Program-made: the position numbers and the translations under genes
Notes under the pieces: generated by a model
Seen by the model: the letters and a program-made list of their open reading frames with translations, nothing else
Told to the model about the DNA's origin: nothing
Database searches by the model: none
Assembly: GCF_004369205.1 (NCBI RefSeq)
Contig: NZ_QFGA01000001.1
Location: 1,364,001 to 1,428,000, forward strand
From: Pelotomaculum schinkii
GTDB taxonomy: Bacteria; Bacillota; Desulfotomaculia; Desulfotomaculales; Pelotomaculaceae
DNA: 64,000 nt
Direction of reading: 5' to 3'
Part shown: positions 1,199-55,805 of the stretch, piece by piece
Layout: each line of letters opens with the position of its first letter
Numbering within the stretch: position 1 is the stretch's first letter

Positions 1199-1201
1199 GT
1201 A

Positions 1202-1465
1202 ATTCAAAAAATAACACAATGGCGAAATTTTGTAAGCGTAATTGAAAAAACAGTGGAATCCTGTGCCAAAAGTGGTATTAACGTCGATGATCATTTTGCT
1301 AACGTCAGCAAAATGATCGATCTCGCAAAAGGCGCCAAACGTGAGATTGAGTATATTGGGCTTTCGCGCTATGCCTGTTATTTAATTGTGCAAAATGCTG
1401 ATCCAACACTGGATGAAAATACAAAAGTCTCGCAATTAGAGAGAAAATCAGCTAACATAATATAG
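1202..1465 (+). pseudogene. dinD-like gene remnant inside the hsd operon
   Basis: The frame opens right after the hsdM stop and reads WRNFVSVIEKTVESCAKSG, then DDHFANVSKMIDLAKGAKR and LSRYACYLIVQNADP. This is the conserved core of DinD, the DNA-damage-inducible protein D family related to BRO-N-type proteins. The usual N-terminus is missing: no ATG or Shine-Dalgarno is seen, and the first possible start is GTG 1253. After QNADP the residues no longer fit the family and the frame stops at 1465, so about two thirds of the C-terminal half is gone. DinD-like genes are known neighbours of type I systems. Here one seems to have been removed by deletion while the hsd genes stayed open. Identification rests on recalled family motifs. 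Confidence 0.7.
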
Positions 1466-1510
1466 GAAGAACTCCAAATTCAGTGACGGCATGAATCAAA
1501 GGAGACGGTT

Positions 1511-2758: not shown

Positions 2759-2912
2759 TCCGCTAAGATATGAAATTAATCCGAACAAAACGAATTCTGT
2801 AATTAGCGAAAAAAGATTACCTTTTATGATTGAAACTCTAAGAAAAGTTGCCTCTGCTGTGGCGGCCAAAATGGCGCAGGGCGCAATGACTGAAATCAAA
2901 TAGACAACAGAG
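2759..2912 (+). other. hsdS-hsdR spacer with a short unexplained open frame
   Basis: The 154 bases between hsdS and hsdR hold an in-frame stretch (2757-2903) that reads cleanly to TAG and ends in a helix-like segment IETLRKVASAVAAKMAQG. There is no good start codon near its beginning and no Shine-Dalgarno at the internal ATG 2827. It could be the last codons of a deleted gene, as with the dinD remnant upstream, or chance. I do not recognise it. Confidence 0.2.
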
Positions 2913-9162: not shown

Positions 9163-12100
9163 ATGTCTGAAATGGTGTTTATAAGCAGCTCCACAGGTTC
9201 AAAGGTTGTTGTTGTGGTATGTCCCAAATGCGGCAGGATCAGCCGTCAGATTCTCAGGGACGTATATTCGCGGCAACCTGTTTGTGCCCTGTCTGCAGAA
9301 CATAAGTGTCCTGTTTGTGGTGCTATATATTCTTCATGCAACGCGGCACGAAGCAACAGTTGGGCAAACGCCTATAACCGCTATTCCAGAGATGCACAGG
9401 GGTATAATAATTCCATCAAGGAGAACTATCAGCGAAGCCTTTCAGCACAGCATGAGCCTGCCGTTGCTGCTCAAGCGCCGGCTCAATTTGCTGCCACTGC
9501 CCCCGTACAGCAAAGACAGCAAACCGCCTTTGTTCAGATGGCTCCTGTGCCAGCGCCAGCTCCCTCTACTCCGCAAGCACCGGCACAGGTAATTAATGAG
9601 GGTGCGATACGAAAGATGTCTCAAGAGACTTTGTTGGGCGCTCTACAGCAAGCCATAACTCAGATGCAGGCTGAGGAATCCAAAGCTCCGGAAGCGGCCC
9701 CTCCTCCCAAAATAGAAGACGCGATACCGCTGCCGTCTTTTACTTCGGCTCCGGTTCAGCCTCCTGCTCAGTTTGACGCCTTGGATCGAAAAATAGAGTA
9801 TTGGAAGAATCAGCTTCTGGATTTCGGTAAACGCAACAAGATGATCAATTACCGCGAAACAAAGCGGGCGACGCTCCGCATCTTAGAGCCTGAGTTTTCC
9901 GAGCTGTTCAATCGCCTTGCCCTCAATGAAGAAGAACTAACCTTCCAGCGCCCAATCGATAAGGACTCTGATTTGAGAACCTTCTCGATGCTTTCGCTGC
10001 TGGAAACCTTGTCATATCCTCTTCCGGTACATATTGGAGATATTAAAACTGAAGGAACTATTTTAGAGCGGCAGAAAACACTAAAAAATCTCCGTACCAA
10101 ATCCAAGCTTGCCAGAGACGAACAAGGTACAAATATACTCTACTTGTCCTTTGGGTTTATCGAATGGAAAGAGAACAATGTGGCCAGCTCCCCCTGGCTA
10201 AAATCCCCGATTCTTATGATGCCGGTTTCTCTCAAGATAGAATCTATCCAAGCCCCCTATACTATCAGTCGTTATGATGATGAGATCGAAGTCAACCCGA
10301 CGCTCGACTACCTGTTTAATCAAGAATACGGCATCGATCTGCCCACCTTCGAACTCAAGGACGCATCTTCGATTGATCAGTACATGGAAGTAATCGAGGA
10401 TATCGTCGACAAGCGTGGCTGGAAGCTTGTGCGAGAAGTCAGCATGGGATTGTTGTCTTTCCTCAAAATCAGTATGTACCACGATCTAAACAATAACCGC
10501 GAAAGGATGCTGAACAATCCCGTAATTCGAGCCATCACAGGAGATACCAGCGTAGCCAATGTAATCCCCAAGGAATATCTCAATTTCAGTTTTGACCGCG
10601 TGGCTCCATACGATTGGTATCAAGTAGTCAATTCAGACTCCAGTCAACAGGAAGCGATTCTGCTCTCCAAGATTGGCGTCAGTTTTGTTATGCAAGGCCC
10701 TCCCGGCACTGGCAAAAGCCAGACGATAACGAATATTATAGCCGAGGCTCTGGCAGATGGTAAAAAGGTTCTGTTTGTTTCCGAAAAAGCTGCGGCACTT
10801 CAGGTCGTTTATAAGCGGCTTTCGGAAGTTCATCTGGATGATTTCTGCCTCGCCCTGCACAGCCATAAAGCCAACAAAAAAGAGATTCTCGATAGTATTG
10901 GCGACAACTTGAAACTGCCACACAATCGTGTTAAGGACAGTGTTATGGCTGAGCTTAACGAGCTGTTCCACGACCGTGAATATCTGAATCAATATGCCCA
11001 TGAGCTTCATGAAGAAGTTGCTCCCCTCGGAGAGAGCCTCTATGTCGTATTCGGGAAGCTGTCAAAGCTAGATACTGCAACGGCGATCCCGTTTGTGATC
11101 GACAATCCCACTGCCGTTTCTGCTGACCAGTTCAATACAATGATTTACTGTGTCAGGAATTATGCAAAAGCTCTTGCTAATATGGGTGGTAAACTGACAG
11201 ATAACCCTTGGTATGGTTCGGTTGTGACCTCAATAAGTCAAGAATTCAAATCCCAATTATTGGCTGAAACGCAAGGCTTGGATCAGCAGCTCTCCTCATT
11301 ATATGAGGCTTTATCCAATTATCAGAACAAATATGGTTTTGGCGGAGAAGCTACTTGGAACGACGTTCAGCGAATTATTTCTATGCTCAGCGAAATAGAA
11401 AAAACCCCTCTGTTCCCGTTCGACTGGTGCAGCTCGGAAAGACGTGCACAGCTTCTTTCTGCCGCAAATAAAGCCAAAAAGTTGAAGCTGAAGTATTTAT
11501 CAGTGCTGACCGAAGTACAGAGTCATTTTGCAGACACCATATTTGATGTTGACTTGAACGCATGGACTGAATCTATGAACGCAAACATTGCGGCAATTCA
11601 GCAAATCGGTAATTATTCGACTTTGTTGGCCGGGGATATATTCACTAGAGTAGAAAATGTCAATGTCTATGCCAAAGCCTTAGTTACTCAGATAACAGAA
11701 ATCATCGCGAAATACCATGAGGCTATTGACATTCTTCATATCGACATTACGGATACATTTGAAAACATGAGCAAGATCGGACAAATCGCAGAGGCTTTAA
11801 TTACCATGACCGCTGCAAGGCGTGAATGGTTTGACACTTTTATTTATAACCAGGCTGTCCATCAAATTGATATTGCAAAGTCGCATACTGCAAGTGTTCA
11901 GGCAAAGTCGCAGGCTTTATTGGAACATTGGGAACCTGAAGTTTTTACAATTAACGCAGATTCAATGCTGGAACGTTTTATGACGAAATATAACAGCAGC
12001 TTTAAAGATTCGGTGATTGCATACAGGCAAGATGTTGAGACTATTTACGGTATGTCAAAGTCTGTTATTCAAAAAACCAGCGACGATGTTATTGTTTCGC

Positions 12101-15100
12101 TGTTACAAAATATCAAGGCCATTAATACAGAAAAGCAAAGGATGGCGGAAAACGAAACGCTTATATGCTCTCATTTTGGAAGTAATTACTTCGGTTTGGA
12201 CACGGATTGGAATAATTTACACGCGGTTTATTCACGGGTTGGCCGTCAAATAGAAATGGTGAAATCAAACTCTGACAGCATTCACATCTGGATGCAGGCC
12301 TTATTGGAACAATGGGAGCCGGAAGTTTTCGAGATTGACACGGAAGCAATGCTGGGACGTTTCAAGACGGAGTATACTGGCATTTTCAGACGTTTAAAAT
12401 CTGCATACAGAAGGGATGTTAAGGCCATTCGCTGTGTATCCAAATCTGTTGGTGGAAAAATAAATGATGATGTTATTGTTTCGCTGTTACAAGATATCAA
12501 AGCCATCAATACAGAAAAGCAACGAATGGCGGAAAACGAAACGCTAATACGCTCTCACTTCGGAAACTATTACTTTGGGTTAGATACGGATTGGAATAGT
12601 TTACGCGCGATATATTCACGGGTTGGCCGCCAAATAGAAATGGTGAAATCAAATTTTGATAATATCCAGGCCCAGATGAAGGCTCTGCTGGAGCAATGGG
12701 AGCCAGGAATATTATCCATTGACGCGGAAGCGATGTTGGTACGCTTTACGACAGAGTATAGTAGAGTTTTCACAGATTTAATGTTTGAATATCAAAAGGA
12801 TGTTGAGTTCATATGTGGGATGTCTAAATCTATCAGAAAAGAAATTGGCGATGAAGAAATTATTATACTATTGCAAAAACTGAAAGATATTAATTCGGAG
12901 AAGCAATGGTTTGCCGATAACGAGCAGGTCTTGCGTTCCTGTTTTGGTGATTACTATCTCGGGATGAGTACTGACTGGCAGAGCTTAAGTACTGGACTGT
13001 CTTTTGTCGCATCTCTGTGTAAGATCTTTCCTCACGGGATTGTATCATCAAAGATTATCGACATAATCTGCGATAAGGCTTCCCACTCAGCGGAGTATTC
13101 GAAGCTTACTGGTATTGCACATACCTTGTCCCAAGAGAACATATCAGATGCTCAGATTAAATCGGGTAACGCCACTACTCACATAGCTGATTCGGCAGGA
13201 CTTTCAGTTGAGAAAGACATTCTGCCTTGCTTAAGTGCGCTCAGAGCAGCAAGCGCAAAGATTATCGAATGCATCAATACGGTTCAGCGCCACGCGAAAG
13301 ATGAAATTCCGCTGGCCGATATGACCATGCATATTAGTAAGGCTGTGGAAGTTAAGGCAGCCAAGGCCGATTTGCTTGCGAATGGAGCACCCAACAAAGA
13401 ACTCTTTGGTGACAGGTATCAAGAGATTGAAACGGAATGGGATGCCATAATTGATGACCTAGACAAAGTCGGGGATCTGTTTGCGTGTAAAGATTTTGAG
13501 TTTACTACAGAGGAATTTATAGAATTGCTCTGCGATGATCGTGAAGTGCGTTTGGATCTGTCAAAAGCAAAAGATGACTTACAAAACAGATACACTTCTG
13601 CACAGCAACCGGTTCGTAGTTTTGTCAAGCTGTTCAGAGAAGATGCGGATTTATTCAACTCTTCTCTGATTGACCTTGCTATGCGGTTTAGACGATGCAT
13701 CGATAATTACAGTATGCTAGATAAGTGGCTGGACTACACAGAAACCAAAGCCGAATGTGATAAAGTCGGCCTTTCGGACTTTACTACAAAAATTGATGCT
13801 CAAGATAACTCTATCCCAGGCGTCTCTGATGCATTCAGCAGGGGCTTTTATCGACAATGGAGTGTAGCGGTTATCGACAGCAAAGCCTCCGTGCAGCAGT
13901 TCCGGCGTCGTGTTCATGACGAGAGGATCAACAGATTTGTGGTGCTTGATGACAAGCAATTGGCAATCGCTCAAATGCGGATCCGAGACAAGATTATCAG
14001 CACTTTCCCAGATACCAATAGAGTGATGACAGCAAATGATGAGATGAGTATCCTATTGCATGAGCTTGGGAAAAAGCGCCGGATCATGCCTCTGAGAAAG
14101 TTGTTCCGTTCTATCCCCAATCTACTGCTGACACTTAAACCATGCCTGATGATGTCACCGCTTTCAGTTGCCTATTTCCTCGAAGCTGAATCTTATCAGT
14201 TTGATATGGTTATCTTTGATGAGGCGTCTCAGATTTTCCCGCAAGATGCTATAGGCGCAATATTCAGAGGCGCACAAGTCATCATTGCCGGCGACAGCAA
14301 ACAGCTTCCTCCGACAAACTTCTTTGCCGCCAGCACCAATAACAGCGAGAATGACTATGATAACGAGGACGATAAGGAATATGAAGATGCAATCTACGAC
14401 TCGATCCTCGAAGAAACCACAAATGTACTACCAAACCGCACTCTTCTCTGGCATTACAGGAGTAAGCATGAACATCTTATAGCATTTTCAAACCAAGAAA
14501 TCTATAAAAACGAACTGGTGACTTTCCCGAGCAGTATAGAAAAAGAAGAAGATACCGGTGTTGAATTTGTCTACGTTGAACATGGCGCCTATGAAAGCGG
14601 CGGTAAAAACTGCAATGTTCAGGAAGCAAAACGCTGTGTTGAACTTGTCAAGGACCACATTAAAAAGCATCCCACTCGCTCACTTGGGATAATAGCATTT
14701 AGTGAGAAACAGCAGCAGGCCATATCTTATGAGATACAGCGTTTCAGAGAGCAGAATCCAGAATTCGAAGAATTTTTCGCTGAAGACAAAGAGGACGAGT
14801 TCTTCGTGAAGAATCTTGAAAATGTTCAAGGCGATGAACGAGATACAATTATTTTCAGTATCGGTTACGCCAAGACAAAAGACCAACGTGCAAATAACAG
14901 GCCTATGTCAATGCGTTTTGGCCCACTTGGGCATCAGGGCGGTGAGCGCAGACTGAATGTGGCAATCACCCGTGCAAAACGAAATGTCAAACTTGTGAGT
15001 TCAATCCTGCCTTCGGATATCGATCTTTCTCGCACAGAATCCGAAGGTGTGCGAATGTTACGTTCATATATCGAGTTCGCTATGAATGGGTCAGCTTCCC

Positions 15101-16128
15101 TTAGATCAGGACGTTCTGATGCTGGCAGCAATGATGATTTTGTGGATACTATCAGTGATTACATTGAACGAAATGGATATCGCATTAGAAAGCACGTTGG
15201 TTGCTCTGGATATAGGATCGATATCGCAGTTGAACATCCAGAGAAAGATGGACGTTTTATCGCGGGCATTGAGTGTGACGGTTTCTCATATATCGCTGTA
15301 AAAACCGCAAGGGATAGGGATCATCTTCGCAAGTCTGTACTGAAAGCGATGGGATGGAGCATCTATCGCGTCTGGTCGACGGAGTGGATTAAGAATCCAG
15401 AAATTGAAGGAGAAAAGCTCATTTCGTTCATTAAGGAAACTGTAGATAATTACCATGAGGATATTACACCAGTAATAACAGAACAGTCTGTTTCTGCGGT
15501 TCCAGACACATATGAAATAGTCGAGGAAATTAAGGAAACTCCTTCTACGGCAACAAAAAATGGAACGCCTGATAATCCATACGGTTTTGACTATTACACT
15601 GAAGCCGTATGGTCAGAAACTCCGAACATCCTGCAGTATCAGGGCACGAACAGAATAATTGAGGAAATCAAATATATAGTTGGGATCGAACAGCCCATTA
15701 GCAAGGATTTGTTGTATCAGCGAATGGCGGGAGCCTTTGGACGGCAAAAAGCTACCGCACCAGTCAGAAATACAATTAATCAAGCCTTACGCGCCACAAA
15801 AGCAAAAGAAATTCTAACCAATTCTGACGGGTTTGTGATCTTGGCTGGTTTTTCAAATTTAAGAGTTAGAATCCCCAAGCAGGGCGATACTCCAAGACCA
15901 ATAAACTATATTTCACCGAGCGAAATCGGATTGGCTATGCTGACCATCGCTTCTCACACCTTTGGTCTTTCTTCAGAAGGGTTGATAGATGAAACAGCCA
16001 GAGTGTTGGGATATGCCCGTAAGGGCGAAAGAATCATGACTTGTGTGAAAGAGGCATTGTCTCGGCTGATTTCAAGCGGACAAGTCAAGCTGATCGATGG
16101 CAAGGTCAATATTGTGGAGGAAGTTTGA
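9163..16128 (+). CDS. Giant zinc ribbon-DUF4011-SF1 helicase-Vsr-like nuclease-DUF3320 protein
   Basis: This 2,321-residue protein probably unwinds and cuts nucleic acid. Domains in order are: an N-terminal zinc ribbon (C20, C23, C49, C52); a Pro/Ala/Gln-rich linker (about 90-205); DUF4011 (from about 210, KIEYWKNQLLDFGKRNKMIN); and an SF1 helicase with Walker A GPPGTGKSQT (from G512). A long helical insert (about 640-1620) with three tandem repeats follows. Then come helicase motif II FDEAS (D1686-E1687), GDSKQLPPT (motif III), VQGDERDTIIFS and LNVAITRAKR (motifs V-VI). Next is a Vsr/MTES_1575-like PD-(D/E)xK nuclease (D2020, E2037-C-D, then RDRDHLRKS and GWSIYRVWS). DUF3320 closes it, near 2170-2230. 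It starts at ATG 9163 behind GAGG and ends one base before the kinase ATG. Related helicase-Vsr proteins occur in defence islands; the exact role here is inferred. Confidence 0.92.
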   Translation: MSEMVFISSSTGSKVVVVVCPKCGRISRQILRDVYSRQPVCALSAEHKCPVCGAIYSSCNAARSNSWANAYNRYSRDAQGYNNSIKENYQRSLSAQHEPAVAAQAPAQFAATAPVQQRQQTAFVQMAPVPAPAPSTPQAPAQVINEGAIRKMSQETLLGALQQAITQMQAEESKAPEAAPPPKIEDAIPLPSFTSAPVQPPAQFDALDRKIEYWKNQLLDFGKRNKMINYRETKRATLRILEPEFSELFNRLALNEEELTFQRPIDKDSDLRTFSMLSLLETLSYPLPVHIGDIKTEGTILERQKTLKNLRTKSKLARDEQGTNILYLSFGFIEWKENNVASSPWLKSPILMMPVSLKIESIQAPYTISRYDDEIEVNPTLDYLFNQEYGIDLPTFELKDASSIDQYMEVIEDIVDKRGWKLVREVSMGLLSFLKISMYHDLNNNRERMLNNPVIRAITGDTSVANVIPKEYLNFSFDRVAPYDWYQVVNSDSSQQEAILLSKIGVSFVMQGPPGTGKSQTITNIIAEALADGKKVLFVSEKAAALQVVYKRLSEVHLDDFCLALHSHKANKKEILDSIGDNLKLPHNRVKDSVMAELNELFHDREYLNQYAHELHEEVAPLGESLYVVFGKLSKLDTATAIPFVIDNPTAVSADQFNTMIYCVRNYAKALANMGGKLTDNPWYGSVVTSISQEFKSQLLAETQGLDQQLSSLYEALSNYQNKYGFGGEATWNDVQRIISMLSEIEKTPLFPFDWCSSERRAQLLSAANKAKKLKLKYLSVLTEVQSHFADTIFDVDLNAWTESMNANIAAIQQIGNYSTLLAGDIFTRVENVNVYAKALVTQITEIIAKYHEAIDILHIDITDTFENMSKIGQIAEALITMTAARREWFDTFIYNQAVHQIDIAKSHTASVQAKSQALLEHWEPEVFTINADSMLERFMTKYNSSFKDSVIAYRQDVETIYGMSKSVIQKTSDDVIVSLLQNIKAINTEKQRMAENETLICSHFGSNYFGLDTDWNNLHAVYSRVGRQIEMVKSNSDSIHIWMQALLEQWEPEVFEIDTEAMLGRFKTEYTGIFRRLKSAYRRDVKAIRCVSKSVGGKINDDVIVSLLQDIKAINTEKQRMAENETLIRSHFGNYYFGLDTDWNSLRAIYSRVGRQIEMVKSNFDNIQAQMKALLEQWEPGILSIDAEAMLVRFTTEYSRVFTDLMFEYQKDVEFICGMSKSIRKEIGDEEIIILLQKLKDINSEKQWFADNEQVLRSCFGDYYLGMSTDWQSLSTGLSFVASLCKIFPHGIVSSKIIDIICDKASHSAEYSKLTGIAHTLSQENISDAQIKSGNATTHIADSAGLSVEKDILPCLSALRAASAKIIECINTVQRHAKDEIPLADMTMHISKAVEVKAAKADLLANGAPNKELFGDRYQEIETEWDAIIDDLDKVGDLFACKDFEFTTEEFIELLCDDREVRLDLSKAKDDLQNRYTSAQQPVRSFVKLFREDADLFNSSLIDLAMRFRRCIDNYSMLDKWLDYTETKAECDKVGLSDFTTKIDAQDNSIPGVSDAFSRGFYRQWSVAVIDSKASVQQFRRRVHDERINRFVVLDDKQLAIAQMRIRDKIISTFPDTNRVMTANDEMSILLHELGKKRRIMPLRKLFRSIPNLLLTLKPCLMMSPLSVAYFLEAESYQFDMVIFDEASQIFPQDAIGAIFRGAQVIIAGDSKQLPPTNFFAASTNNSENDYDNEDDKEYEDAIYDSILEETTNVLPNRTLLWHYRSKHEHLIAFSNQEIYKNELVTFPSSIEKEEDTGVEFVYVEHGAYESGGKNCNVQEAKRCVELVKDHIKKHPTRSLGIIAFSEKQQQAISYEIQRFREQNPEFEEFFAEDKEDEFFVKNLENVQGDERDTIIFSIGYAKTKDQRANNRPMSMRFGPLGHQGGERRLNVAITRAKRNVKLVSSILPSDIDLSRTESEGVRMLRSYIEFAMNGSASLRSGRSDAGSNDDFVDTISDYIERNGYRIRKHVGCSGYRIDIAVEHPEKDGRFIAGIECDGFSYIAVKTARDRDHLRKSVLKAMGWSIYRVWSTEWIKNPEIEGEKLISFIKETVDNYHEDITPVITEQSVSAVPDTYEIVEEIKETPSTATKNGTPDNPYGFDYYTEAVWSETPNILQYQGTNRIIEEIKYIVGIEQPISKDLLYQRMAGAFGRQKATAPVRNTINQALRATKAKEILTNSDGFVILAGFSNLRVRIPKQGDTPRPINYISPSEIGLAMLTIASHTFGLSSEGLIDETARVLGYARKGERIMTCVKEALSRLISSGQVKLIDGKVNIVEEV
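11893..13020 (+). repeat. Three tandem 384-bp repeats inside the helicase gene
   Basis: Equivalent codons recur at exactly 384 bases (128 codons): the LLEHWEP/LLEQWEP segment at 11917, 12301 and 12685, and the DDVIVSLL/DEEIIILL segment at 12085, 12469 and 12853. Units 1 and 2 are close to identical over about 190 bases, including silent positions, whereas unit 3 has diverged. The repeats encode a long helical (coiled-coil-like) array between the helicase halves. Unit 3 fades out near 13020. The high DNA identity of units 1 and 2 indicates recent duplication and possible length variation between strains. Confidence 0.9.
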
Positions 16129-16129
16129 A

Positions 16130-17824
16130 ATGGATAACAGAACACAGATTAATCAAGAAATTCAATCTGCCCCACAAACGGCGATAAACAGCGAAATAGC
16201 TGAACAGTATCAGGCACGAATTGAAAGTGTTTCCGAAGTAAGTACAGGACTTCTCGAAACCGGCACGATAGTATGTGATAAGTACACTATCGAAAATCGT
16301 CTGGAAGTAACATCAGGCGAGGCGGATCTATATGTCTGCTCCGCTGATGGTCATCAATATGTTGCCAAAGTCTATAAACGGAAGTTTGCCATTAAAGACG
16401 AAGTGATTCAAGCACTTCTCAGCATTGATTCTCCATATGTAGCAAAACTCTATGAAACATCAACATATAATGGATTCCCAATTGAGATAATCCCCTATTA
16501 CAAAAACGGAAGCCTTCAGGGCAAGACTTGCTCCTATGATGACCTTATTCGTATGGTGATTCCCAATATAAACGAGGGACTAAAAGCATTACATGATTCC
16601 GGGATAATTCACAAGGATCTCAAACCATCAAACATAATGTTGGCTGATGACGACAAGAGTGTTGCAATTATAGACTTCGGCATAAGCTCCGTCGTGAGCG
16701 AGGGCAGCACCGTTGTAGTAACAAAGACCGGCATGACGCCCGAATACTCTGCTCCGGAAACATTTCGCAACCTATTTCTCGAAGAATCCGACTACTATTC
16801 TTTCGGGATCACGCTCTTTGAGTTGTTTTGCGGCTATACCCCTTATGCGAACATGAGCTCAGAGGAAATAGAGCAATATGTTTCAGTGCAGCGCATCCCG
16901 TTTCCGGAAAATATGCCAGCTTTGCTCCAAGACTTTATTTCTGCCCTGACCTATTACGATATCACAAACAGAAAAAACAAGAGCAATCCCAATCGTCGAT
17001 GGACATATGACGAAGTGAACAAATGGCTCAATGGCGAAAGCCTTGTCATTCCAGGTGAAGGTATCGGTAATGTCGGGAAAGGCATTATGCCGACCTACAT
17101 CTTTATGAATGAGTCATTTACCGATCCGGCATCCCTGGTGACGGCATTTGCGAAGAATTGGGAAGAAGGCAAAAAACAGCTTTTCAGAGGTATGGCCACC
17201 GCACATTTCCGAGCATTTAATCAGGACATTGCTAAACACTGCATTGAAGCCGAGGAAGAAGCAAGCCGCACTAACGGGAAAGACGATATAATCTTTTGGA
17301 AACTGCTCTATCAGATCAACCCGAAGCTAAAAGGCCTCTATTGGAGAGGGCAAGTTTTTGAAAGCCTTCCGGCGCTTGGGCGGGATATGCTGGAACGTCT
17401 ATGGAAGAAAGACAAAAGCCAATATCCTTATTATACCAGCATACTTACCGAAAAGCTTCTATCGCAATATGTCGCTATGGCTGCCCCCAAAAACGAGAGC
17501 TTAAAAAAGGCGGCAACTGCAATCGAAGACTCATATCAGTTTGAGATTAATAATCACATGGATATGCAAAGAACGTTCTACCTGATGGCCTATACAATAT
17601 CGGGGCAGAAACTTCTATGTATAGCAGGTCAACACTTTAGAACTGTTGGAGAGTTGGCGGGATATATGCGTTCACAATTGGATGAATCCTTTGAAGCGTT
17701 TGAAAGCCTCTGCCATAAGCTCGTGGACTATGATGGAAATCTGGACATTCAACTTGAAGCCTGGCTTACTGCAATTGGGAAAAAGAAAGAATTAGACAGG
17801 TGGAGATCACTCATGAACGAGTGA
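16130..17824 (+). CDS. Soluble Ser/Thr protein kinase of the cluster
   Basis: This 564-residue protein has a complete Hanks-type kinase domain at about 50-300. ATP lysine K80 is in QYVAKVYKR, the catalytic loop is HKDLKPSN (D163, N168; lysine replaces the usual arginine before Asp), DFG is at 182-184, and the activation-segment end TPEYSAPE is at 203-210. The activation loop is rich in Thr/Ser (TVVVTKTGMTP), so autophosphorylation is plausible. No transmembrane segment is seen; the 260-residue C-terminal part is helical and unrecognised. ATG 16130 lies one base after the helicase stop with GAGG upstream, indicating translational coupling. An FHA reader and a PP2C phosphatase follow in the same cluster, so this kinase probably sets the phosphorylation state of a cluster protein. 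Confidence 0.93.
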   Translation: MDNRTQINQEIQSAPQTAINSEIAEQYQARIESVSEVSTGLLETGTIVCDKYTIENRLEVTSGEADLYVCSADGHQYVAKVYKRKFAIKDEVIQALLSIDSPYVAKLYETSTYNGFPIEIIPYYKNGSLQGKTCSYDDLIRMVIPNINEGLKALHDSGIIHKDLKPSNIMLADDDKSVAIIDFGISSVVSEGSTVVVTKTGMTPEYSAPETFRNLFLEESDYYSFGITLFELFCGYTPYANMSSEEIEQYVSVQRIPFPENMPALLQDFISALTYYDITNRKNKSNPNRRWTYDEVNKWLNGESLVIPGEGIGNVGKGIMPTYIFMNESFTDPASLVTAFAKNWEEGKKQLFRGMATAHFRAFNQDIAKHCIEAEEEASRTNGKDDIIFWKLLYQINPKLKGLYWRGQVFESLPALGRDMLERLWKKDKSQYPYYTSILTEKLLSQYVAMAAPKNESLKKAATAIEDSYQFEINNHMDMQRTFYLMAYTISGQKLLCIAGQHFRTVGELAGYMRSQLDESFEAFESLCHKLVDYDGNLDIQLEAWLTAIGKKKELDRWRSLMNE

Positions 17825-17854: not shown

Positions 17855-19219
17855 ATGAGTGGCCCTAAGATATCCGTATATGAACTCTCTGCTTGGGCGA
17901 GGCGCAACCTTAGTGGGCAAATCAGATGTCAACAACAGACTTTTGCTTGCGTCGAACAGATTCGCAACCTGATTCGAGAAATATTAAGCTCAAGTGGAAG
18001 CATTGATTCAATATTAAGCAATCTTTCTATGCTTCTCGAAAGAACCGGAAAAGGCGCAGAAGAAGTGCAGTTGCTGACTGATTTGAAAGCAACGCTTAAA
18101 AAGGACTGTGCAGCATTCCAGAAGGATCTTGAGGACAACATCCCACAGCCCGCAACAACGATTACAATTAGCGATGAAGCTCTTGCTGATAAGAAAGCAT
18201 TATTGGGAAAAATAAAAGCAATCCAAACGGAGGCCGCTTCATATCAGGCCAATCTGTGCAAAGTATTATCTCAGGGCGGTCATCAGAATAAGGAGCATTC
18301 GGGCGAGCTTTATGATGATATCGTCTCGGATATCAACGCAGCCGCTTCGTTTGATATTGCCGTTATCGATGTTGCTAAGGATGACTTCCATACGACGTAT
18401 AAAATGCTTGAAAGAAAACTTAGCTCGCTCATGCTGGACAGCTCCTGTCCAGCAGAGATCAAAGCCGAAGCAAAGAAAGCTGTAACTGCACTTGGGAAAA
18501 TTACAGATCTTGATTACTTAAAGACATTTGAAGCTGTTTCTGTTAAGCCGTTGTTGAAAAAGTATCAGGATGCCGTTTCGCGCCTTTCAAAAATACAAAA
18601 CGATTATCAGATGCTATTAACCCGTTATTTAGCCCTATTCACCTTGACAGGCAGCGAAGCAAAAACCGTTCCCATAACTGATGAAGCAATCTCGCTTTTA
18701 CAAACCGAGATTTCCAAACTCGAGAAGCAGCTCGTGAGGCAAAAAGAGCAGGAATACATCAGCAGTTGTGTTGATCAGGTTATGGTTGAGATGGGATATG
18801 ACCTCCTCGGACATCGTGAAGTAACTAAGCGAAGCGGAAAACGCTTCAGAAATGAGTTGTATTCTTATGGAAAAGGAACTGCGGTCAATGTTACCTATGC
18901 TTCCGATGGTCAAATCACTATGGAACTTGGTGGAATTGACAGAGCTGATCGCGTTCCGAATCTGGAAGAAACGGATATGTTGCGCGAAGACATGGAATCA
19001 TTCTGCGAAGATTTCGCCGAAATCGAGAAAAGATTACAAGCAAAGAGCGTCATCATCGGAAAACGCATTGCCATGTCTCCGCCCTCGACAGAATACGCTT
19101 CAATCATCAACATCAACGATTATGAAGTAAAGTCATCCAAGCCAATCGCTACGATAACTGTCACCAACAAGCGCAAGAGAACGTCAGTAAAACAGACCAT
19201 GAGAAGGGATGATAGCTAA
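17855..19219 (+). CDS. Coiled-coil protein of unknown function, conserved N-terminal MSGPK start
   Basis: This 454-residue, mostly helical protein begins MSGPKISVYELSAWARRNLS. It has long heptad-like segments (about 25-300), and the C-terminal third (about 305-440) looks globular, with DQVMVEMGYDLLGHREVTKR and a DGQITMELGG strand pair. No enzyme motif or membrane segment is seen, and I do not recognise a named family. AGAGG precedes ATG 17855 (the kinase stop lies 30 bases upstream), and its stop overlaps the next ATG (TAATG at 19217). Lying between kinase and FHA gene, it could be the phosphorylation substrate or a scaffold of the helicase; this is inference from position only. Confidence 0.75.
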   Translation: MSGPKISVYELSAWARRNLSGQIRCQQQTFACVEQIRNLIREILSSSGSIDSILSNLSMLLERTGKGAEEVQLLTDLKATLKKDCAAFQKDLEDNIPQPATTITISDEALADKKALLGKIKAIQTEAASYQANLCKVLSQGGHQNKEHSGELYDDIVSDINAAASFDIAVIDVAKDDFHTTYKMLERKLSSLMLDSSCPAEIKAEAKKAVTALGKITDLDYLKTFEAVSVKPLLKKYQDAVSRLSKIQNDYQMLLTRYLALFTLTGSEAKTVPITDEAISLLQTEISKLEKQLVRQKEQEYISSCVDQVMVEMGYDLLGHREVTKRSGKRFRNELYSYGKGTAVNVTYASDGQITMELGGIDRADRVPNLEETDMLREDMESFCEDFAEIEKRLQAKSVIIGKRIAMSPPSTEYASIININDYEVKSSKPIATITVTNKRKRTSVKQTMRRDDS

Positions 19220-19836
19220 TGGCTTTAGAAAAATATAAGGTTTGCCCTGCTTGTGGTGAACACAATCCACCCGTTCTCTTAGAATGTAAGAAATGTGAAA
19301 CCGATCTCACGGGAGTTAAGGTCGTTGACAGCGCCTCTGAGCTTAGTGATACCCTTGAAAAGGAAGACTCAGCCAAAGTCGATACCCAACAAGAGTTAGT
19401 GAAAATCTGCGATTGCGGTGCACATAATCCTCCCCAAGCAAGGAAGTGTATTTCCTGTGGAGAAGACATATCAGACATACGACCGACTGCGACCTTTCAG
19501 AAGCAAAACATATATGCGCTTCAATCCGTATCTGACGATTACTCTTTTGTCATCGATAAGCCTGTTACCATCATTGGTCGCGAGGCAGAAATGCAGGATT
19601 ACCTCGCTCAGAAGCCTTATGTGAGCCGACAGCACGCTAAGTTTACCATTGTAGGAAATGAAGTTTTTATTGAGAATTTGAGCAGTACTAATCATACTTT
19701 CGTCAATAATGCTCTAATATCCAAAGAATCGCCAACTCTCCTGAAGGAAGGCGATGAAATTGGACTTGGTGGAAAGGTTATAGATGAACAGCGCCAAGCC
19801 AACGCAGCGTATTTCATTTTTAAGGTGACATCATGA
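19219..19836 (+). CDS. Double zinc-ribbon FHA-domain protein (phospho-threonine reader)
   Basis: This 205-residue adaptor has two zinc ribbons (CPACGEHNPP...CKKC at C9, C12, C23 and C26, then CDCGAHNPP...CISCGED). A C-terminal FHA domain (about 110-200) follows, with the signature IIGREAEM, VSRQHAKF, and NLSSTNHTFVN. Gly-Arg, Ser-Arg-x-His and Asn are the phospho-peptide contacts of FHA domains. It should bind a phospho-threonine made by the neighbouring kinase. The zinc ribbons may bind nucleic acid or protein; the giant helicase has a similar one. Its start overlaps the preceding stop by one base and its stop overlaps the radical-SAM ATG (ATGA), so stoichiometric expression is likely. Confidence 0.92.
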   Translation: MALEKYKVCPACGEHNPPVLLECKKCETDLTGVKVVDSASELSDTLEKEDSAKVDTQQELVKICDCGAHNPPQARKCISCGEDISDIRPTATFQKQNIYALQSVSDDYSFVIDKPVTIIGREAEMQDYLAQKPYVSRQHAKFTIVGNEVFIENLSSTNHTFVNNALISKESPTLLKEGDEIGLGGKVIDEQRQANAAYFIFKVTS

Positions 19837-20450
19837 ATGTAGCCAGAATCCTTTATCCAGTTAAGGTGCTCGGCCCCGGCAATCGCATTGGGATTTGGCT
19901 GTGTGGATGTTCACGTGAATGCGCTGGATGCAGCAATCCAGAGCTGTGGCACATGCGGGATGAATACGAAATAAGCGTCTCACAATTATTGAATCTTATA
20001 ACTGAGATAGCAAATAATCGGTATGTAGACGGCTTCACTATTACTGGCGGCGAACCTATGGATCAGAGCCAAGAACTGGCCGTCTTTATAAAATATATAA
20101 AAAAAATAAGCGATGATATTCTTATCTATTCGGGGTATACGATTGATGCTTTATATAAAAAAGATGCGCCAGACATGGGCAGCATCCTTAACTCTATTGC
20201 CATATTAATTGATGGAGCATATATCGAAGATCGCAATAACAACACGCCTCTTGTTGGCTCGGACAATCAAAAAATCAACATACTCAATTACAGATACAAG
20301 GAACGCTATGAGAAATATTTAAGTACAATAAACAATCAGATACAGAATTTCACCACGACCGATGGAGTCATTTCGGTAGGAATTCATAGAAGCAGCTTTA
20401 AAAAAGAACTTGATGAACGAATTGATTGGGTTAATAGAGATCGGGAGTAG
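19833..20450 (+). CDS. NrdG-like radical-SAM/4Fe-4S activating protein
   Basis: This 205-residue protein resembles the anaerobic ribonucleotide reductase-activating enzyme NrdG. The cluster motif is CSRECAGC (C26, C30, C33; Cx3Cx2C), preceded by GNRIGIWLCG. The SAM-binding GGE motif is in FTITGGEPMDQS. NrdG normally makes a glycyl radical on NrdD, but no NrdD or other glycyl-radical protein is encoded nearby. It overlaps the FHA gene by four bases (ATGA), which ties it to the cluster rather than to nucleotide metabolism. It may modify or activate a cluster protein, or act as a redox/oxygen sensor; both are inference. The C-terminal part (LVGSDNQKINIL then a helical tail) is shorter and less typical. 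Confidence 0.88.
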   Translation: MNVARILYPVKVLGPGNRIGIWLCGCSRECAGCSNPELWHMRDEYEISVSQLLNLITEIANNRYVDGFTITGGEPMDQSQELAVFIKYIKKISDDILIYSGYTIDALYKKDAPDMGSILNSIAILIDGAYIEDRNNNTPLVGSDNQKINILNYRYKERYEKYLSTINNQIQNFTTTDGVISVGIHRSSFKKELDERIDWVNRDRE

Positions 20451-20863: not shown

Positions 20864-22744
20864 ATGGCTGACTATATATCAAAGTGGCACCGTGAACTCG
20901 GTATCTTTAGCCGAATTAAGCCTTTGATTATTATAGAAGGAAATGTTTTAGATGTTTATCAATACCCGTTGGAAGGAAGTATTTCCAAGGGGAGTATTCT
21001 TAGGCTTCCAGAATATCTTCATTACTATTTCAAAGACATAGGCTATCAAACCATCGTGTTCTTTGACAGCATGCAGGGCTTTTATAATACCTGTGAAGAC
21101 GGCCACATTGATGAATTCGCACGCTTGAGCAATACGAGAGACGATGGTAAATTCATTCGGTCAGAATTCAAAGGCAAGACAAATTCTGCCTCTGCTATCG
21201 TGCGCTCTGCTGTAAGTCAAAATCAAAGTTCAACAGCCATTATCATGAATCTTGCCTCCCGCTACATTACTTCACCGGACAATCTGGAGCAAGCTGAGGT
21301 AGACAGCTTCACAAACTTACTGCTGGCGTCACTTGAAGGGAAAGACGTCCGGACAGAAGGAGGCGCTCTGAAGAATATCGTCGTAATGATCGTAAACAAA
21401 ACCAATGACGTTCCGGTATGGTTTTACCATGACAACCCGAATGTTAAGACGATCACAATCAGCACACCTTCCAAAGAGGAACGCGAACAGCTCGTAAAAG
21501 GTGAAAATTTTACCAGTTTCTTTGCCCCAGATATATATGCGGAAGATATCGCTTACTATGAAGAACATCCAGATGAGCTTGAAAAAGTACAAGATAAATT
21601 CGTCGGTCTGACAGAAGGATTCAGCTTCACGGAGATTAACGGTCTTCGCCGCCTGTGCAAGAACGAGCGAACCCATATCCGTCACATGTCAACGGTCATT
21701 GATCTGTACAAATACGGGATTAAGGAAAACCCTTGGGATACGCTGGATGAAAACGAACTAAAAAATGCACATGAGGATTTTGAAAAGAGGATCAAAGGGC
21801 AGGACTATGCGATAACCAAAACGCTCGACGTTGTCAAACGCGCAGTGACCGGTATGGCAGGGCTACAGCACTCATCCCATACGAAGCCCAAGGGCATTCT
21901 CTTCTTTGCAGGGCCTACTGGTACCGGCAAGACCGAAACAGCCAAAACGCTTGCCGAAAAGCTGTTTGGAGATGAAAGCTGCTGTATTCGCTTTGATATG
22001 AGTGAATATGGTCAGAGCCATAGTGACCAGAAGCTCCTTGGGGCGCCTCCTGGATATGTCGGTTATGAAGCCGGAGGCCAACTTACAAATGCAGTTAGGG
22101 AAAATCCTTTCTCCATTCTGTTGTTTGACGAAATAGAAAAAGCGAATCCTTTGATCTTTGATAAGTTCCTGCAAATATTAGAGGACGGCCGTATGACCGA
22201 CGGGCAAGGAAATACAGTGTATTTTTCCGAGTGTATTATTATTTTTACAAGCAACCTTGGTATCTTTACTTGGAATGCTATGGGCAGCAGAGAACCCAAT
22301 GTCACCGCAGAAATGGAATACTCGGAAGTTCAAAAAAAAGTTAGGCAAGCTATTGAAGACTATTTCAAGCTGGAGCTCGGTCGTCCTGAGATTCTCAATA
22401 GAATCGGAGAGAACATCATCGTATTCGACTTCATTCGGCCACCAGTTGCTGAAATCATCTTGGATGCTTTGGTAAACAAGATAATCAAAAACCTTGCAGC
22501 GGAAAAGAGAATCGACCTGGTATTGTCAGACGAAGCGAGAGCGACGCTCCTTGAGAAGTCTCTCGGCAATCTTGCAAACGGTGCCAGAGGCATCGGTAAC
22601 ATCGTTGAGAGTTTGCTCATAAACCCCTTGTCTCGTTATCTCTTTGACAACTCCATAAAAGGAGATGAAAGAATTGTCATCAGATCAATCGATGCTGAGA
22701 ATATCCCGTTTAATCTAAATTGTACTCGAGGTGAGGTCGAATGA
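20864..22744 (+). CDS. ClpA/ClpB-like AAA+ ATPase with a degenerate N-terminal module
   Basis: This 626-residue protein has its C-terminal half (about 300-600) as a standard Clp/Hsp100 D2-type AAA+ module. Walker A is GPTGTGKTET (from G350), followed by the substrate-pore segment GAPPGYVGYEAGGQLT, Walker B ILLFDEIEK, sensor-1 IIFTSNLG, and the Clp C-terminal lid. The N-terminal half (1-290, PLIIIEGNVLDVYQYP...) looks like an AAA-like fold without a Walker A, so only one ATPase ring is expected. No ClpP-binding loop or N-terminal Clp repeat is seen, so it is more likely an unfoldase/remodeller than a protease partner. GAGGAGGG lies ahead of ATG 20864, and the stop overlaps the PP2C ATG by four bases. 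Confidence 0.9.
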   Translation: MADYISKWHRELGIFSRIKPLIIIEGNVLDVYQYPLEGSISKGSILRLPEYLHYYFKDIGYQTIVFFDSMQGFYNTCEDGHIDEFARLSNTRDDGKFIRSEFKGKTNSASAIVRSAVSQNQSSTAIIMNLASRYITSPDNLEQAEVDSFTNLLLASLEGKDVRTEGGALKNIVVMIVNKTNDVPVWFYHDNPNVKTITISTPSKEEREQLVKGENFTSFFAPDIYAEDIAYYEEHPDELEKVQDKFVGLTEGFSFTEINGLRRLCKNERTHIRHMSTVIDLYKYGIKENPWDTLDENELKNAHEDFEKRIKGQDYAITKTLDVVKRAVTGMAGLQHSSHTKPKGILFFAGPTGTGKTETAKTLAEKLFGDESCCIRFDMSEYGQSHSDQKLLGAPPGYVGYEAGGQLTNAVRENPFSILLFDEIEKANPLIFDKFLQILEDGRMTDGQGNTVYFSECIIIFTSNLGIFTWNAMGSREPNVTAEMEYSEVQKKVRQAIEDYFKLELGRPEILNRIGENIIVFDFIRPPVAEIILDALVNKIIKNLAAEKRIDLVLSDEARATLLEKSLGNLANGARGIGNIVESLLINPLSRYLFDNSIKGDERIVIRSIDAENIPFNLNCTRGEVE

Positions 22745-23484
22745 TTTACGTTGCCACACGAGCGGGTAACGGGAAAACAGTAAGTGAAGATCGCGTTCTT
22801 GTCGGACGTAATGTGATATGTAATGCCTCCGCTGACTTTCCTATTCCCGCAAGAGGTTTTGTTTGCGTTGCAGATGGGGTTGGCGGAAATACAGGAGGCG
22901 CTGAAGCATCTGAGTTCGTTGTCAATGCGCTGATGTCATTTGCCGAAACTAATGAAGAACTCTCCAAAGAGGCGGTCACTAAGCATTTGTGGAAGATCAA
23001 TTCCGAACTGCTTTCCTTTGGTCAACAGCAAAGTGGTCGATACCAATTGGCGACAACACTGACCGGAGTGCTATTTTCCGAAACCGAAAAGTATCTCATC
23101 CATATTGGAAATACAAGAGCCTATGTTGTGCAGGCGCATTTTCTAAAGCAACTGACATATGACCATACCGTAAGCAACTGGCTAAAGAGTATGGGAAGAA
23201 TTGACGAGGCTGAACAATGCAATAAGAATGAGATCACTAATTGCTTCGGCGGCGGCAATGAAACTTTGTTTAAACGGCTGGATATAAGTTCTTTACAAGC
23301 ATTTCACACAATGCTATTAACATCCGATGGAGTCCATGATTTTGTAAGTGTCGCAGAATTAGAGCAATTCATGTCATCGGATATTCCGGGAAACTGTAAA
23401 TGTGAGAGAATCGTTGAGTCAGCGCTGAGTGCTGGATCACAGGATGATTTATCTGTAGTCATCATCAATTCACAGGAGGGATAG
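22741..23484 (+). CDS. PP2C-family Ser/Thr protein phosphatase of the cluster
   Basis: This 247-residue protein has the PP2C/SpoIIE-type metal-binding pattern: an early acidic residue in SEDRV (D17), VCVADGVGGNTGG (D45), LLTSDGVHD, and SQDDLSVVII near the end. No membrane segment is seen. It overlaps the AAA+ gene by four bases (ATGA). It should reverse the action of the cluster kinase, holding the system off or resetting it. Bacterial kinase/PP2C pairs are common, but an FHA reader, a helicase-nuclease and a Clp-like ATPase in the same run are not the usual cell-wall (PrkC/PrpC) setting. Confidence 0.93.
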   Translation: MIYVATRAGNGKTVSEDRVLVGRNVICNASADFPIPARGFVCVADGVGGNTGGAEASEFVVNALMSFAETNEELSKEAVTKHLWKINSELLSFGQQQSGRYQLATTLTGVLFSETEKYLIHIGNTRAYVVQAHFLKQLTYDHTVSNWLKSMGRIDEAEQCNKNEITNCFGGGNETLFKRLDISSLQAFHTMLLTSDGVHDFVSVAELEQFMSSDIPGNCKCERIVESALSAGSQDDLSVVIINSQEG

Positions 23485-23488
23485 AAAA

Positions 23489-24544
23489 ATGGGTTTTCGC
23501 ATGAGAAAAAGCATAAATCTCGGGGGAGGTTTCAAAATCAATCTCAGTAAATCTGGCATTGGATACAGCTGGGGTGTCCCAGGCTATAGGATCACTAAGA
23601 CAGCCAAAGGAGCCACGCGCAGAACTTACTCGATACCTGGCACCGGTATTTCATATGTTGATGAAACAGGCCACAATTCGCATAACCACGCCAACAATAA
23701 CGGTACAAGAACCCGCACTAATCAATATGCAGACCCATCCGGTTACATCCAGACACCAGGTTACGATCAAGTTCGAAATATCGAAATTGCAGATATTGAA
23801 CAACTCAAGACAGCGGAAGCTGATAATATCACTGCAACTATAGAGAAAACGATGAGGTTCAATAAATGGGGCACAATCCTCTTGTGGTGTGGACTGTTAG
23901 GCTTTGCTCAGTGGTATTTTTTTGTTCTGCCTATTATCGGGATTGTGCTGAAAGTAGTTGCCCATAAAACCGGAGTAGTTGATCTCGACTACTCATTTGA
24001 CGACGAGAAAGCAGATGAATACAATAGGCGAATAGGTGCTTGGTTGGTCTTGTCTGAAGGTGACCGAGAATGGCAAGTAATTCAAGAGGCTTCTGTATCC
24101 AACACAAAGGTTAACGCCGGAGCGGGAAGAAACATTAAGAGGGTTGTTTGTAGAATAGAGAAAGGAACTCCGTATTATATCAGGACAAATGTTGAAACAA
24201 TTCAGTTAAAGCTTCAAAAAGAATTGCTTCTGTTCCTTCCGGACAAAGTATTTATCATCAGAAAAAAGAAAGTTGGTGCTGTAAACTACAGCGATGTGGT
24301 AATACGGACTTCTCAGGTCAAATTCGTTGAGACCGGCAGGGTTCCAAAAGATGCTCAAGTCGTAGACAGCACATGGCAATATGTGAACAAAAACGGAACC
24401 CCAGATCGGCGCTATAGCAATAACAGACAGCTTCCGATCTGCCTCTATGGTATAGTAACAATCACTTCACCGAATGGCATAAATGTTGAAATGCAATTTT
24501 CCAATATTCAGAAGACTCAAGATTTTGAGGCATTAGCGCGCTAA
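23489..24544 (+). CDS. DUF4236 membrane protein closing the cluster
   Basis: This 351-residue protein begins with a DUF4236 domain: MGFRMRKSINLGGGFKINLS and GIGYSWGVPGYRITKT, with GTGISY. DUF4236 is a short beta domain of unknown function often found at the start of envelope proteins in conflict loci. A Gly/Asn-rich linker follows, and then one long or two short hydrophobic segments at about 130-155 (WGTILLWCGLLGF..WYFFVLPIIGIVLKVV). The remaining 190 residues are soluble, mixed alpha/beta, and unrecognised. It starts 5 bases after the PP2C stop behind GGAGGG. It may be a membrane-acting effector or an anchor; no toxin motif is visible. Confidence 0.8.
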   Translation: MGFRMRKSINLGGGFKINLSKSGIGYSWGVPGYRITKTAKGATRRTYSIPGTGISYVDETGHNSHNHANNNGTRTRTNQYADPSGYIQTPGYDQVRNIEIADIEQLKTAEADNITATIEKTMRFNKWGTILLWCGLLGFAQWYFFVLPIIGIVLKVVAHKTGVVDLDYSFDDEKADEYNRRIGAWLVLSEGDREWQVIQEASVSNTKVNAGAGRNIKRVVCRIEKGTPYYIRTNVETIQLKLQKELLLFLPDKVFIIRKKKVGAVNYSDVVIRTSQVKFVETGRVPKDAQVVDSTWQYVNKNGTPDRRYSNNRQLPICLYGIVTITSPNGINVEMQFSNIQKTQDFEALAR

Positions 24545-25434: not shown

Positions 25435-27528
25435 CTAATCAAAGAATTCGGGGTGTTTTTTCCTGCGATGAGCCATTCTCTTATCCTTCCATTCAGCCAG
25501 CACGGTGTACAGCGAAGGCACCACTATCAGTGTCAGCATTGTCGATAACGCAAGACCGGAGATAATTGTCGTGGCTATCGGGGTGAAAAGCGGGTCCCCG
25601 GATAGAGCCAGAGGCATCAGGCCGGCTATGGCCGTCAGCGAGGTCAGCAGGATCGGGCGCAGGCGGGCCTCTCCGGCGTGGATGACCGCCTGTTTCAGCT
25701 CTACCCCCTTCTTCCTGGCTTGTTCTATAAAGTCGATCAGGACTATCCCGTTACGCACCACAATCCCCGCCAGCGAGATAAACCCCATCATGCTCATGAA
25801 ACCCAGCGGGGTACGTGTGACAAAGAGGCCGATAAGCCCCCCTGCGACAGCCAGGTAAACCGTGCTCATAACCAGGAGCGGCAGGCTCAAGGAGTTAAAC
25901 TGGATAGCGATCACGATTAGAATTAAAAATATCACCACAATCGAAAGCCTGCCCATGTCAGCGAAAATATCCGTTTGTTCCGACATCTCTCCCCCGGTTT
26001 CCCAGCGGTAACCTTCCGGCAGCTCCATCTGTCCCAGGAACTGGATAATCTCCGTCATTACCTCCGTTGCCGTGCGGTTATGGACATCGCCCGTGATGGT
26101 GACCACCCTGGACAGGTTGCGGTGAGGGATATTCTGCAGAGTAAAGGAAGGTTTGACCACAGCCAGTTCGCTCAGGGGGATCTGTTCCCCGCGGGCATTG
26201 GCCACCGTCAGGTGCTGGAAGACGGCCATGGGATCACCTTCGCCTTTCTCCATATACATTGTCATGTCGATTAGATCTTTTCCGTTATCAAACTGGCTGA
26301 CCGTAATCCCTTCACTGACCAGGCGCAGGGTGCGGGATAAATCGGTGTAATTAACCAGACGCTGGTCCATCATAGGCTTGTCGACCTGAAATTCCAGGGC
26401 GTAGCTGTCAATCCCGAAGTTGTCCTGGATGTTGTAGGCGCCAGGCACCTTGGATATCCTGTCTTTAACCTCCTGGGACAGCTGGCGCAGTTTGCCGATG
26501 TCTGTGCCGTAGATGTGCACGGTTATCGGGTCGCCTACCGGCGGGCCGGTTATCAACAGCCAGGGGTTGACGTCAACCCCCGGGTACTTTTGTTTAAACT
26601 CCGCACGCCACTCTTCCGACACCTCAGCCTGGTTGACCTTGTTGGTGTCCACTTTGGCCATGACCATGGCAGATCCCTCCGACACATTGCTTAAGTCTGT
26701 GCCTCCTCCGAACCACTGGTAGGCATGACCTCCGGAAACGGCCATCACCCCGGTTACGCCCGGCTGGCCTGCTACCCAGGCCTGTAATTCCATGGTGATA
26801 CGGTTGGTTTCTTCAACATCGCTGCCCTTGGGAAGGGTAATTAAAACCGGGAGCTCCTCACGGTCCGCCGCCGGGAAGAGGTCAACCGGGATAAAGGGGA
26901 TCAGTCCGTAAGCTATAGTGCCGATGAAGACACCGGTCAGGCCGGTACGCAGGGGACGCTTCAGCATAACAGGCATAAGCCTTCCGGCATACCAGGCAGT
27001 CAGCCGGGTGATCTGCCTGCCCAACAGCCCGGCAGGCTTGTTTTCGCCGCCTGCCGGCGGTAGGCGGCGGCGTTCGTACCAATTGCGGAATATGGGTACA
27101 ATAGTGACGGCCATGACCATCGAGGCCAGCATGGTCAGTGAAATCACGATCGGTATGGGTCTGATGAACTCGCCTGAATTACCCCGCAAGAACATCAGCG
27201 GGCCAAAGGAAAATATGGTGGCCAAGTCTCCGTCGAAAAGGCGGTCCGCTCCCTTGACCACGACCTGGTCTCCGTCTTTGACGCCGGAAAGGATCTCAAG
27301 ATGGTTGTTGAAAAGCTCTCCGGTCGTCACAAAAGTTTTGACCGCTTTATCACCCACAGCTAAAAATACGTAGGGCTTCTCTTCTCCCCGGCTTAAGACC
27401 GCCTCCACGGGGACGAACAGTCCTTCCTTCATGGCAGCGGTGCGCGAGGCCTTGACGACCTGCCCGGGGAACCAGTCACGCCGGGGATTTGGCACCTCAA
27501 CTTCTACGCTGATGGTACCGGTACCCAT
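25435..27528 (-). pseudogene. In-frame chimera of an RND efflux adaptor end and an RND pump C-terminal half
   Basis: The first ~103 residues (GTGTISVEVEVPNP, PGQVVKASRTAAMKEGLFVP, VKDGDQVVVKGADRLFDGD) are the C-terminal barrel of a HlyD/MFP periplasmic adaptor. At about residue 104 the frame changes, without any stop, into an AcrB-type pump near its fifth transmembrane helix (FSFGPLMFLRGNSGEFIRPI). It then continues to the normal pump end with the second porter loop and the last six helices (GFMSMMGFISLAGIVVRNGI). The adaptor's N-terminus and the pump's N-terminal half are missing. One deletion between two adjacent genes explains the fusion, and a second removed the adaptor start. The product could be made (697 residues) but should not pump. 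Confidence 0.8.
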
Positions 27529-55771: not shown

Positions 55772-55777
55772 GGAAAT

Positions 55778-55805
55778 CATAAGTTCTTCATAAGTCTTTC
55801 TTAAG
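55778..55805 (+). promoter_or_regulatory. Triple direct repeat upstream of vanG, probable VanR operator
   Basis: TCATAAG (55778-55784), TCATAAG (55788-55794) and TCTTAAG (55799-55805) are spaced 10 and 11 bases apart, one helical turn, as expected for OmpR-type regulators binding one face of DNA. The vanS stop lies just upstream and the vanG ATG 114 bases downstream, so this would be the second promoter, of the vanG-vanXY-vanT unit. Confidence 0.55.

Follow-up and report, generated by a model that had tools for sequence, protein, structure and literature searches.

An NrdG-like radical-SAM protein in a mobile, defence-like gene cluster of Pelotomaculum schinkii probably modifies a protein of its own cluster

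What does an NrdG-like radical S-adenosylmethionine (SAM) protein do in a gene cluster that lacks NrdD? This question is raised by a 64,000-nucleotide stretch of the Pelotomaculum schinkii genome (contig NZ_QFGA01000001.1, positions 1,364,001 to 1,428,000; hereafter the window), in which a gene at 19833..20450 (+) encodes an NrdG-like radical-SAM protein of 205 residues with a C-terminal hairpin extension. It is one of eight closely packed or overlapping genes, all on the plus strand, which also encode a helicase-nuclease, a protein kinase, a coiled-coil protein starting with MSGPK, a protein with a forkhead-associated (FHA) domain, a ClpB/ClpC-like AAA+ protein, a PP2C-type phosphatase and a DUF4236 protein. 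A first-pass annotation had taken the radical-SAM gene for a cluster member with no NrdD nearby, and had suggested that it activates a cluster protein, by a glycyl radical or otherwise, or gates defence by oxygen. We propose that the enzyme probably modifies one of the proteins of its own mobile cluster, and not its classical partner NrdD.

The motifs pointed out in that annotation are all present. The cysteine triad CX3CX2C reads C26-SRE-C30-AG-C33, GGE lies at G72-G73-E74, and the reading frame, starting at 19833, overlaps the FHA gene, ending at 19836, by 4 bp (ATGA). Pfam assigns Fer4_12 (101.7 bits, cut-off 22) and Radical_SAM (37.6 bits, cut-off 29.5). The triad, the SAM-binding motifs and the fold that characterise the Radical SAM superfamily are thus found in this protein. 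Because every one of 25 divergent cluster members (about 25 to 57% identity to the window protein) has the three cysteines, GGxP and GSxNQ, the motif is not a product of chance; a C-terminal glycine is likewise invariant across the cluster proteins. The AlphaFold2 model (mean predicted local distance difference test, pLDDT, 91.4), which like our other structure models was built from the sequences of the genome loci, is nearest to the pyruvate formate-lyase (PFL)-activating enzyme with AdoMet and peptide (3cb8, Z 10.9), followed by QueE (Z 10.2) and the viperins (Z about 7). From its invariant residues, the enzyme is predicted to be catalytically competent.

Is it then a second copy of NrdG? 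The two share CX3CX2C, GGE/GGD-P, DGxY, GSxNQ and a core of similar length. The host genome has NrdD matches solely at G000:C2:643070-646147, with a true NrdG adjoining at C2:642509-642955. This pair lies on another contig and no NrdD is found within the window, which bears out the first-pass reading and means that the cluster gene encodes a second, separate NrdG-like protein. Its score against the NrdG model TIGR02491 is 103.5 bits, under the curated cut-off of 126.1; cluster members score 83-114 bits and NrdD-linked NrdGs 115-159 bits, although the score by itself is no sharp criterion, as one true NrdG also falls under the cut-off. In the phylogeny, true NrdGs form one group, weakly supported as a clade (82/30), that excludes the cluster proteins. 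The approximately unbiased (AU) test rejects a window clade forced into NrdG (p=1.5e-4) or joined with the Firmicute NrdGs (6e-16), so that the window protein is not a true NrdG; a single clade for all cluster proteins has a p of 0.051. GSxNQ is followed by 40-79 residues in the cluster proteins and by 6-22 in 11 true NrdGs. In the model, this extension forms helices and a beta hairpin, which bears the region of the invariant G183. The cluster protein thus differs from NrdG in its missing nrdD partner, its extra hairpin with an invariant glycine, its separate clade and its linkage to AAA, FHA, kinase and PP2C genes. Judged by sequence, it belongs to a radical-SAM subfamily derived from, or sister to, NrdG.

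Its most constant neighbour is the AAA+ gene (20864..22744, +). Among 398 genomes of the phylum, the AAA protein was found in 12 (E ≤ 1e-75), and in 12/12 the radical-SAM gene is adjacent or one gene off; some of these genomes are close relatives, four belonging to a single genus (g136), which leaves fewer than 12 independent cases. The linkage also holds in both of the relatives G461 and G406. Among plasmid records with the AAA protein, distant phyla included, the radical-SAM gene is immediately adjacent in 19 of 21: Rhizobium (7), Moellerella (6) and one each in Caballeronia, Leisingera, Polaromonas, Photobacterium, Acinetobacter and Aristaeella. The exceptions are Geminocystis, with the two genes 9 kb apart, and Mesomycoplasma, with AAA alone. 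The chance that one of 21 Fer4_12 proteins neighbours any given gene is about 1%, a rough estimate that assumes 4300 genes. Radical-SAM and AAA distances correlate with r=0.86, which 0/2000 permutations reach, as expected under co-inheritance; shared host ancestry may contribute.

The order kinase-MSGPK-FHA-radical-SAM-AAA-PP2C is kept in several independent loci. Clostridium drakei, Butyrivibrio, a Clostridia metagenome-assembled genome and Aristaeella retain the gene order of the window, some with extra genes inserted; the gap between the radical-SAM and AAA genes is 413 bp in the window versus a 4-bp overlap in Aristaeella. The gene was present in essentially all related clusters, and this conserved linkage, together with the FHA overlap, confirms that it is no stray metabolic gene. 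Neither of the two outcomes that the annotation named as refuting it, a place within true NrdG or absence from most related clusters, was obtained. A proteobacterial version consists of an SF1 helicase, a PIN protein, a coiled-coil protein, AAA and radical-SAM, with BREX and DarT genes as neighbours in Acinetobacter and ArdA in Moellerella. In Rhizobium (L046:17467-23727), a DUF4011 helicase-nuclease fused with a protein kinase (2086 residues) stands beside the AAA and radical-SAM genes. Viral contigs held no relatives; among the matches listed, phage records gave partial ClpB-like matches only, and E. coli genomes short Clp ATPase matches only (ClpB and a plasmid Clp subunit). Two further loci were rejected as relatives, L017 for a short and weak match and L040 as a true NrdG, 1.5 kb from NrdD. 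We found no description of the cluster arrangement in the open-access literature, the part of the literature that our search covered apart from a minority of preprints.

Other pairings of an NrdG-like radical-SAM gene with an AAA ATPase were seen along the way. In Treponema succinifaciens (L103:7905-10060), the two stand side by side within a contractile injection system locus. A recurrent module in L050, L104 and L105 combines an AAA ATPase, DUF1257 (or, instead of it, a hypothetical protein), DUF2997 and an NrdG-like radical-SAM protein, sometimes with a helix-hairpin-helix protein.

Could the enzyme nevertheless serve a glycyl-radical enzyme elsewhere in its host? The radical-SAM gene is present in genomes G113 (78% complete), G218 (95%) and G313 (97%), which have no NRDD and no Gly_radical match. 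The cluster copies of G218 and G313 retain every catalytic residue, which argues for a dedicated core component and against an activase of NrdD or PFL. Acinetobacter and Rhizobium, plasmid hosts of the AAA-radical-SAM pair, are aerobes. Together, these hosts argue against any general dependence on NrdD or PFL-type enzymes. Since the same gene pair is carried on plasmids of aerobes, an anaerobiosis or oxygen gate is also unlikely as a general role.

Modification within the cluster raises the question of the substrate. We searched for the glycyl-radical loop with the pattern R[VTIC]x[GC][YFLW], which recovers the controls PflB (RVSGY) and NrdD (RVCGY), and found no conserved loop in the cluster proteins, nor any in 24 AAA proteins. 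The sole match in the cluster, RVLGY at residue 2280 of the helicase HelA, near its C terminus, was rejected because the arginine is not conserved in relatives (REFGF, KSFGF, KALGY) and the segment is missing in the proteobacterial systems. The best explanation remains that some cluster protein is activated post-translationally, as first suggested; a glycyl-radical loop is unsupported as its site, and another candidate site comes forward.

This site, a candidate for modification or for recognition, is the N-terminal tag MSGPKxSxYxL (17855..17887, +) of the coiled-coil protein encoded at 17855..19219 (+), a candidate substrate or adaptor with a conserved C-terminal domain. In seven relatives, which diverge to about 30-40% identity, the stretch ahead of L222 has eight invariant residues, M1, S2, G3, P4, K5, S7, Y9 and L11; residues 12-221 contain no invariant column. 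The full pattern occurs once in the 398 genomes, in the window, the copy in G144 having been missed as its start codon is not ATG; the short MSGPK pattern by itself occurs in DNA at chance-level frequency. Neighbouring coiled-coil proteins start with MSGPK or MSGEK in Rhizobium, a G289 cluster, Calothrix and G461, and the comparison of the Firmicute family with the Rhizobium protein (E 7e-4, probability 26%) gives some support for homology. Two radical-SAM loci were found without AAA, and both have an MSGPK-start coiled-coil protein adjacent to the radical-SAM gene or one gene off, so the MSGPK protein persists where AAA is missing. The first, L015, encodes a helicase, a kinase, MSGPK and radical-SAM, with no AAA, FHA or PP2C across 10 kb downstream. 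The second, L099:1291-7381 (G461 contig 58), encodes radical-SAM with the same kind of C-terminal extension, a macro-domain protein, the MSGPK coiled coil, a second coiled coil and Hsp70, and no AAA. By its conserved residues, the MSGPK protein is the likeliest candidate substrate.

Several observations weigh against this choice. The proteobacterial coiled-coil protein that precedes AAA lacks the tag, and hhalign detects no homology between the proteobacterial coiled-coil proteins and the Firmicute MSGPK family; the tag is therefore not the substrate in every system. The same comparison gives no homology support for the MSGPK protein of L099, which is linked by its tag alone and not by its remaining sequence, and a plasmid search with this protein as query returned no match. 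G151 has one MSGPK-start gene with no radical-SAM gene nearby. In addition, the proteobacterial systems do without FHA, without PP2C and without a separate kinase gene, which makes phosphorylation an optional layer.

With these points counted, we tentatively propose, at somewhat less than an even chance, that the radical-SAM enzyme is a dedicated core component of a helicase-bearing, defence-like system controlled by kinase, phosphatase and FHA proteins, where it most likely modifies the MSGPK tail and does not activate a ribonucleotide reductase. The catalysis, substrate, order of events and anti-phage role that we infer would fit together as follows. With SAM and its [4Fe-4S] cluster, the enzyme would modify a cluster protein by radical chemistry, leaving perhaps a glycyl radical or the product of its oxidation. 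On the coiled-coil protein encoded nearby, the exposed N-terminal tail (M)SGPKxSxYxL would be the likeliest target. Assembling, opening or disassembling the complex that presents the target may fall to the AAA+ unfoldase, or to Hsp70 in one variant, while the kinase-FHA-PP2C trio would set the timing of this handling and the helicase-nuclease would act as effector. The more specific version, in which a radical-SAM activase has been recruited to put a radical, or a modification derived from one, on the SGPK tail and thereby license a chaperone-driven, phosphorylation-gated immune complex, is doubtful as it stands.

Alternatively, the enzyme may act not on the MSGPK tail but on the AAA+ unfoldase, or on a client that the unfoldase threads, by modifying it. 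AAA is the commonest partner in genomes and plasmid records and co-varies with the radical-SAM protein, and most AAA proteins have a Y-x-x-G-x(4)-P-W linker between their halves, with G285 and W291 invariant. Set against the radical-SAM genes of L015 and L099, which do without AAA, and the missing glycyl-radical-like loop in the AAA proteins, this appears rather unlikely. A role in making or altering a small molecule or nucleotide, as in pVip or QueE, for use by the helicase-nuclease or to poison phage replication, is more improbable. The fold is about equally near QueE and the PFL-activating enzyme, with viperins further off, and a weak match to pVip (28.5 bits) comes from the Acinetobacter relative; yet the window protein has no match to the PADLOC pVip models at E ≤ 0.01, nucleotide-processing partner genes were not recognised in the clusters, and small activases of NrdG size act on proteins in the known cases. 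Lower still we place the reading in which the Fe-S/SAM site senses redox state, oxygen or SAM and so gates AAA or the kinase, with catalysis dispensable. Fe-S proteins are often sensors and the cluster partners are signalling proteins, but every SAM-binding motif beyond the cysteine triad is invariant across several phyla, which suggests selection for SAM chemistry, and the protein occurs in aerobic as well as anaerobic hosts. Its overall similarity and TIGR02491 score speak for a spare NrdG, or for a decoy that acts on the NrdD of host or phage to activate or block it. This reading is largely refuted and highly improbable given that same score's place under the cut-off, the AU test, the NrdD-free genomes G113, G218 and G313, the plasmids of aerobes and the nrdD-nrdG pair that the host already has.

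The remaining genes of the cluster are consistent with a regulated defence-like system. The first, helA (9163..16128, +), encodes a DUF4011 SF1 helicase (108 bits) with a C-terminal MTES_1575 nuclease domain (107 bits) and is the probable effector. It matches PDC-S37 of PADLOC (1452 bits) and falls below the cut-offs of the NCBIfam antiphage models ProA (1350 bits, cut-off 1500) and Hhe (888 bits, cut-off 2000). The kinase gene (16097..17824, +; 575 residues, Pkinase 108 bits) has orthologues in most Firmicute loci and is followed by the MSGPK gene and by the gene for a double zinc-ribbon and FHA protein (19219..19836, +; FHA 61.9 bits). In the AAA+ protein, AAA_2 (161 bits) and ClpB_D2-small match the C-terminal half only, an active D2-like AAA+ domain; the N-terminal half has no Pfam AAA match. 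Its AlphaFold2 model (pLDDT 86.7) has its best matches in the Protein Data Bank with ClpC, ClpA and ClpB, spanning most of its length, and would resemble two-ring Clp unfoldases. The phosphatase gene (22741..23484, +; PP2C_2 40.7 bits) scores 129 bits against the Stp1/IreP family (cut-off 230), and the last gene encodes the DUF4236 protein (23489..24544, +; 71.8 bits), also found in L014 and weakly in L030 and L047. A type I restriction-modification system (hsdM, hsdS, hsdR; 17-6026) lies directly upstream. This neighbourhood and the resemblance of HelA to the ProA, Hhe and PDC-S37 anti-phage models, in NCBIfam below cut-off, suggest a defence island and a candidate anti-phage role.

Among known systems, the nearest published idea concerns the FtsH-ternary conflict systems, whose standalone radical-SAM gene was proposed to have a peptide effector as the target of its modification (PMC7159879). 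Those systems likewise pair such a gene with an AAA+ protein whose first AAA domain is inactive; they have MoxR, vWA and FtsH, however, none of which Pfam finds among the window cluster proteins, and the AAA protein of the window is ClpB-like. PflA-type activases of glycyl-radical enzymes have the nearest solved fold, but the cluster has no PFL-type partner, and two near-complete host genomes lack a Gly_radical domain. The proteobacterial relatives recall Mokosh through a helicase resembling MkoA (320 bits) and through a PIN protein with a weak likeness to MkoB; the Mokosh models of PADLOC comprise MkoA-C only, with no AAA or radical-SAM. The window itself is not Mokosh type I (MkoA and MkoB), as its helicase is of the DUF4011/PDC-S37 type and matches MkoA in the helicase core only (98 bits). 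The PDC-S37, ProA and Hhe helicase-nucleases share the DUF4011 architecture of HelA, which differs in its sub-cut-off NCBIfam scores and its place within an eight-gene cluster. With pVip, the prokaryotic viperin, the likeness is that of a radical-SAM enzyme in a defence setting.

Elsewhere in the window, a short open reading frame at 25066-25350 matches only the C-terminal third of PDC-S22 (positions 185-272 of 281) and is a possible remnant. At 25435-27528 (-), an RND adaptor-like N terminus is fused in frame to an RND permease whose start corresponds to profile position 442 of 1009, an arrangement suggestive of a deletion. At 53968-59885 lies a vancomycin-resistance cluster of the VanG-like D-Ala-D-Ser type, which comprises VanR (409 bits, cut-off 350), a VanG-like ligase (580 bits, cut-off 495), a sensor kinase, a VanXY-like peptidase and a VanT-like serine racemase fusion.

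To our knowledge, radical-SAM activases of NrdG size are known only as servants of glycyl-radical enzymes. Here, such an activase is the constant companion of an unfoldase in clusters that are mobile, including those of hosts without any glycyl-radical enzyme. If a cluster protein is modified, radical chemistry would join phosphorylation, nucleotide signals and proteolysis as a switch of conflict systems. If the target is the SGPK tail, its alteration would represent a new class of protein modification by radical-SAM enzymes, bacterial immunity would gain a new switch, and the five-residue N-terminal tag would offer a directly testable substrate.
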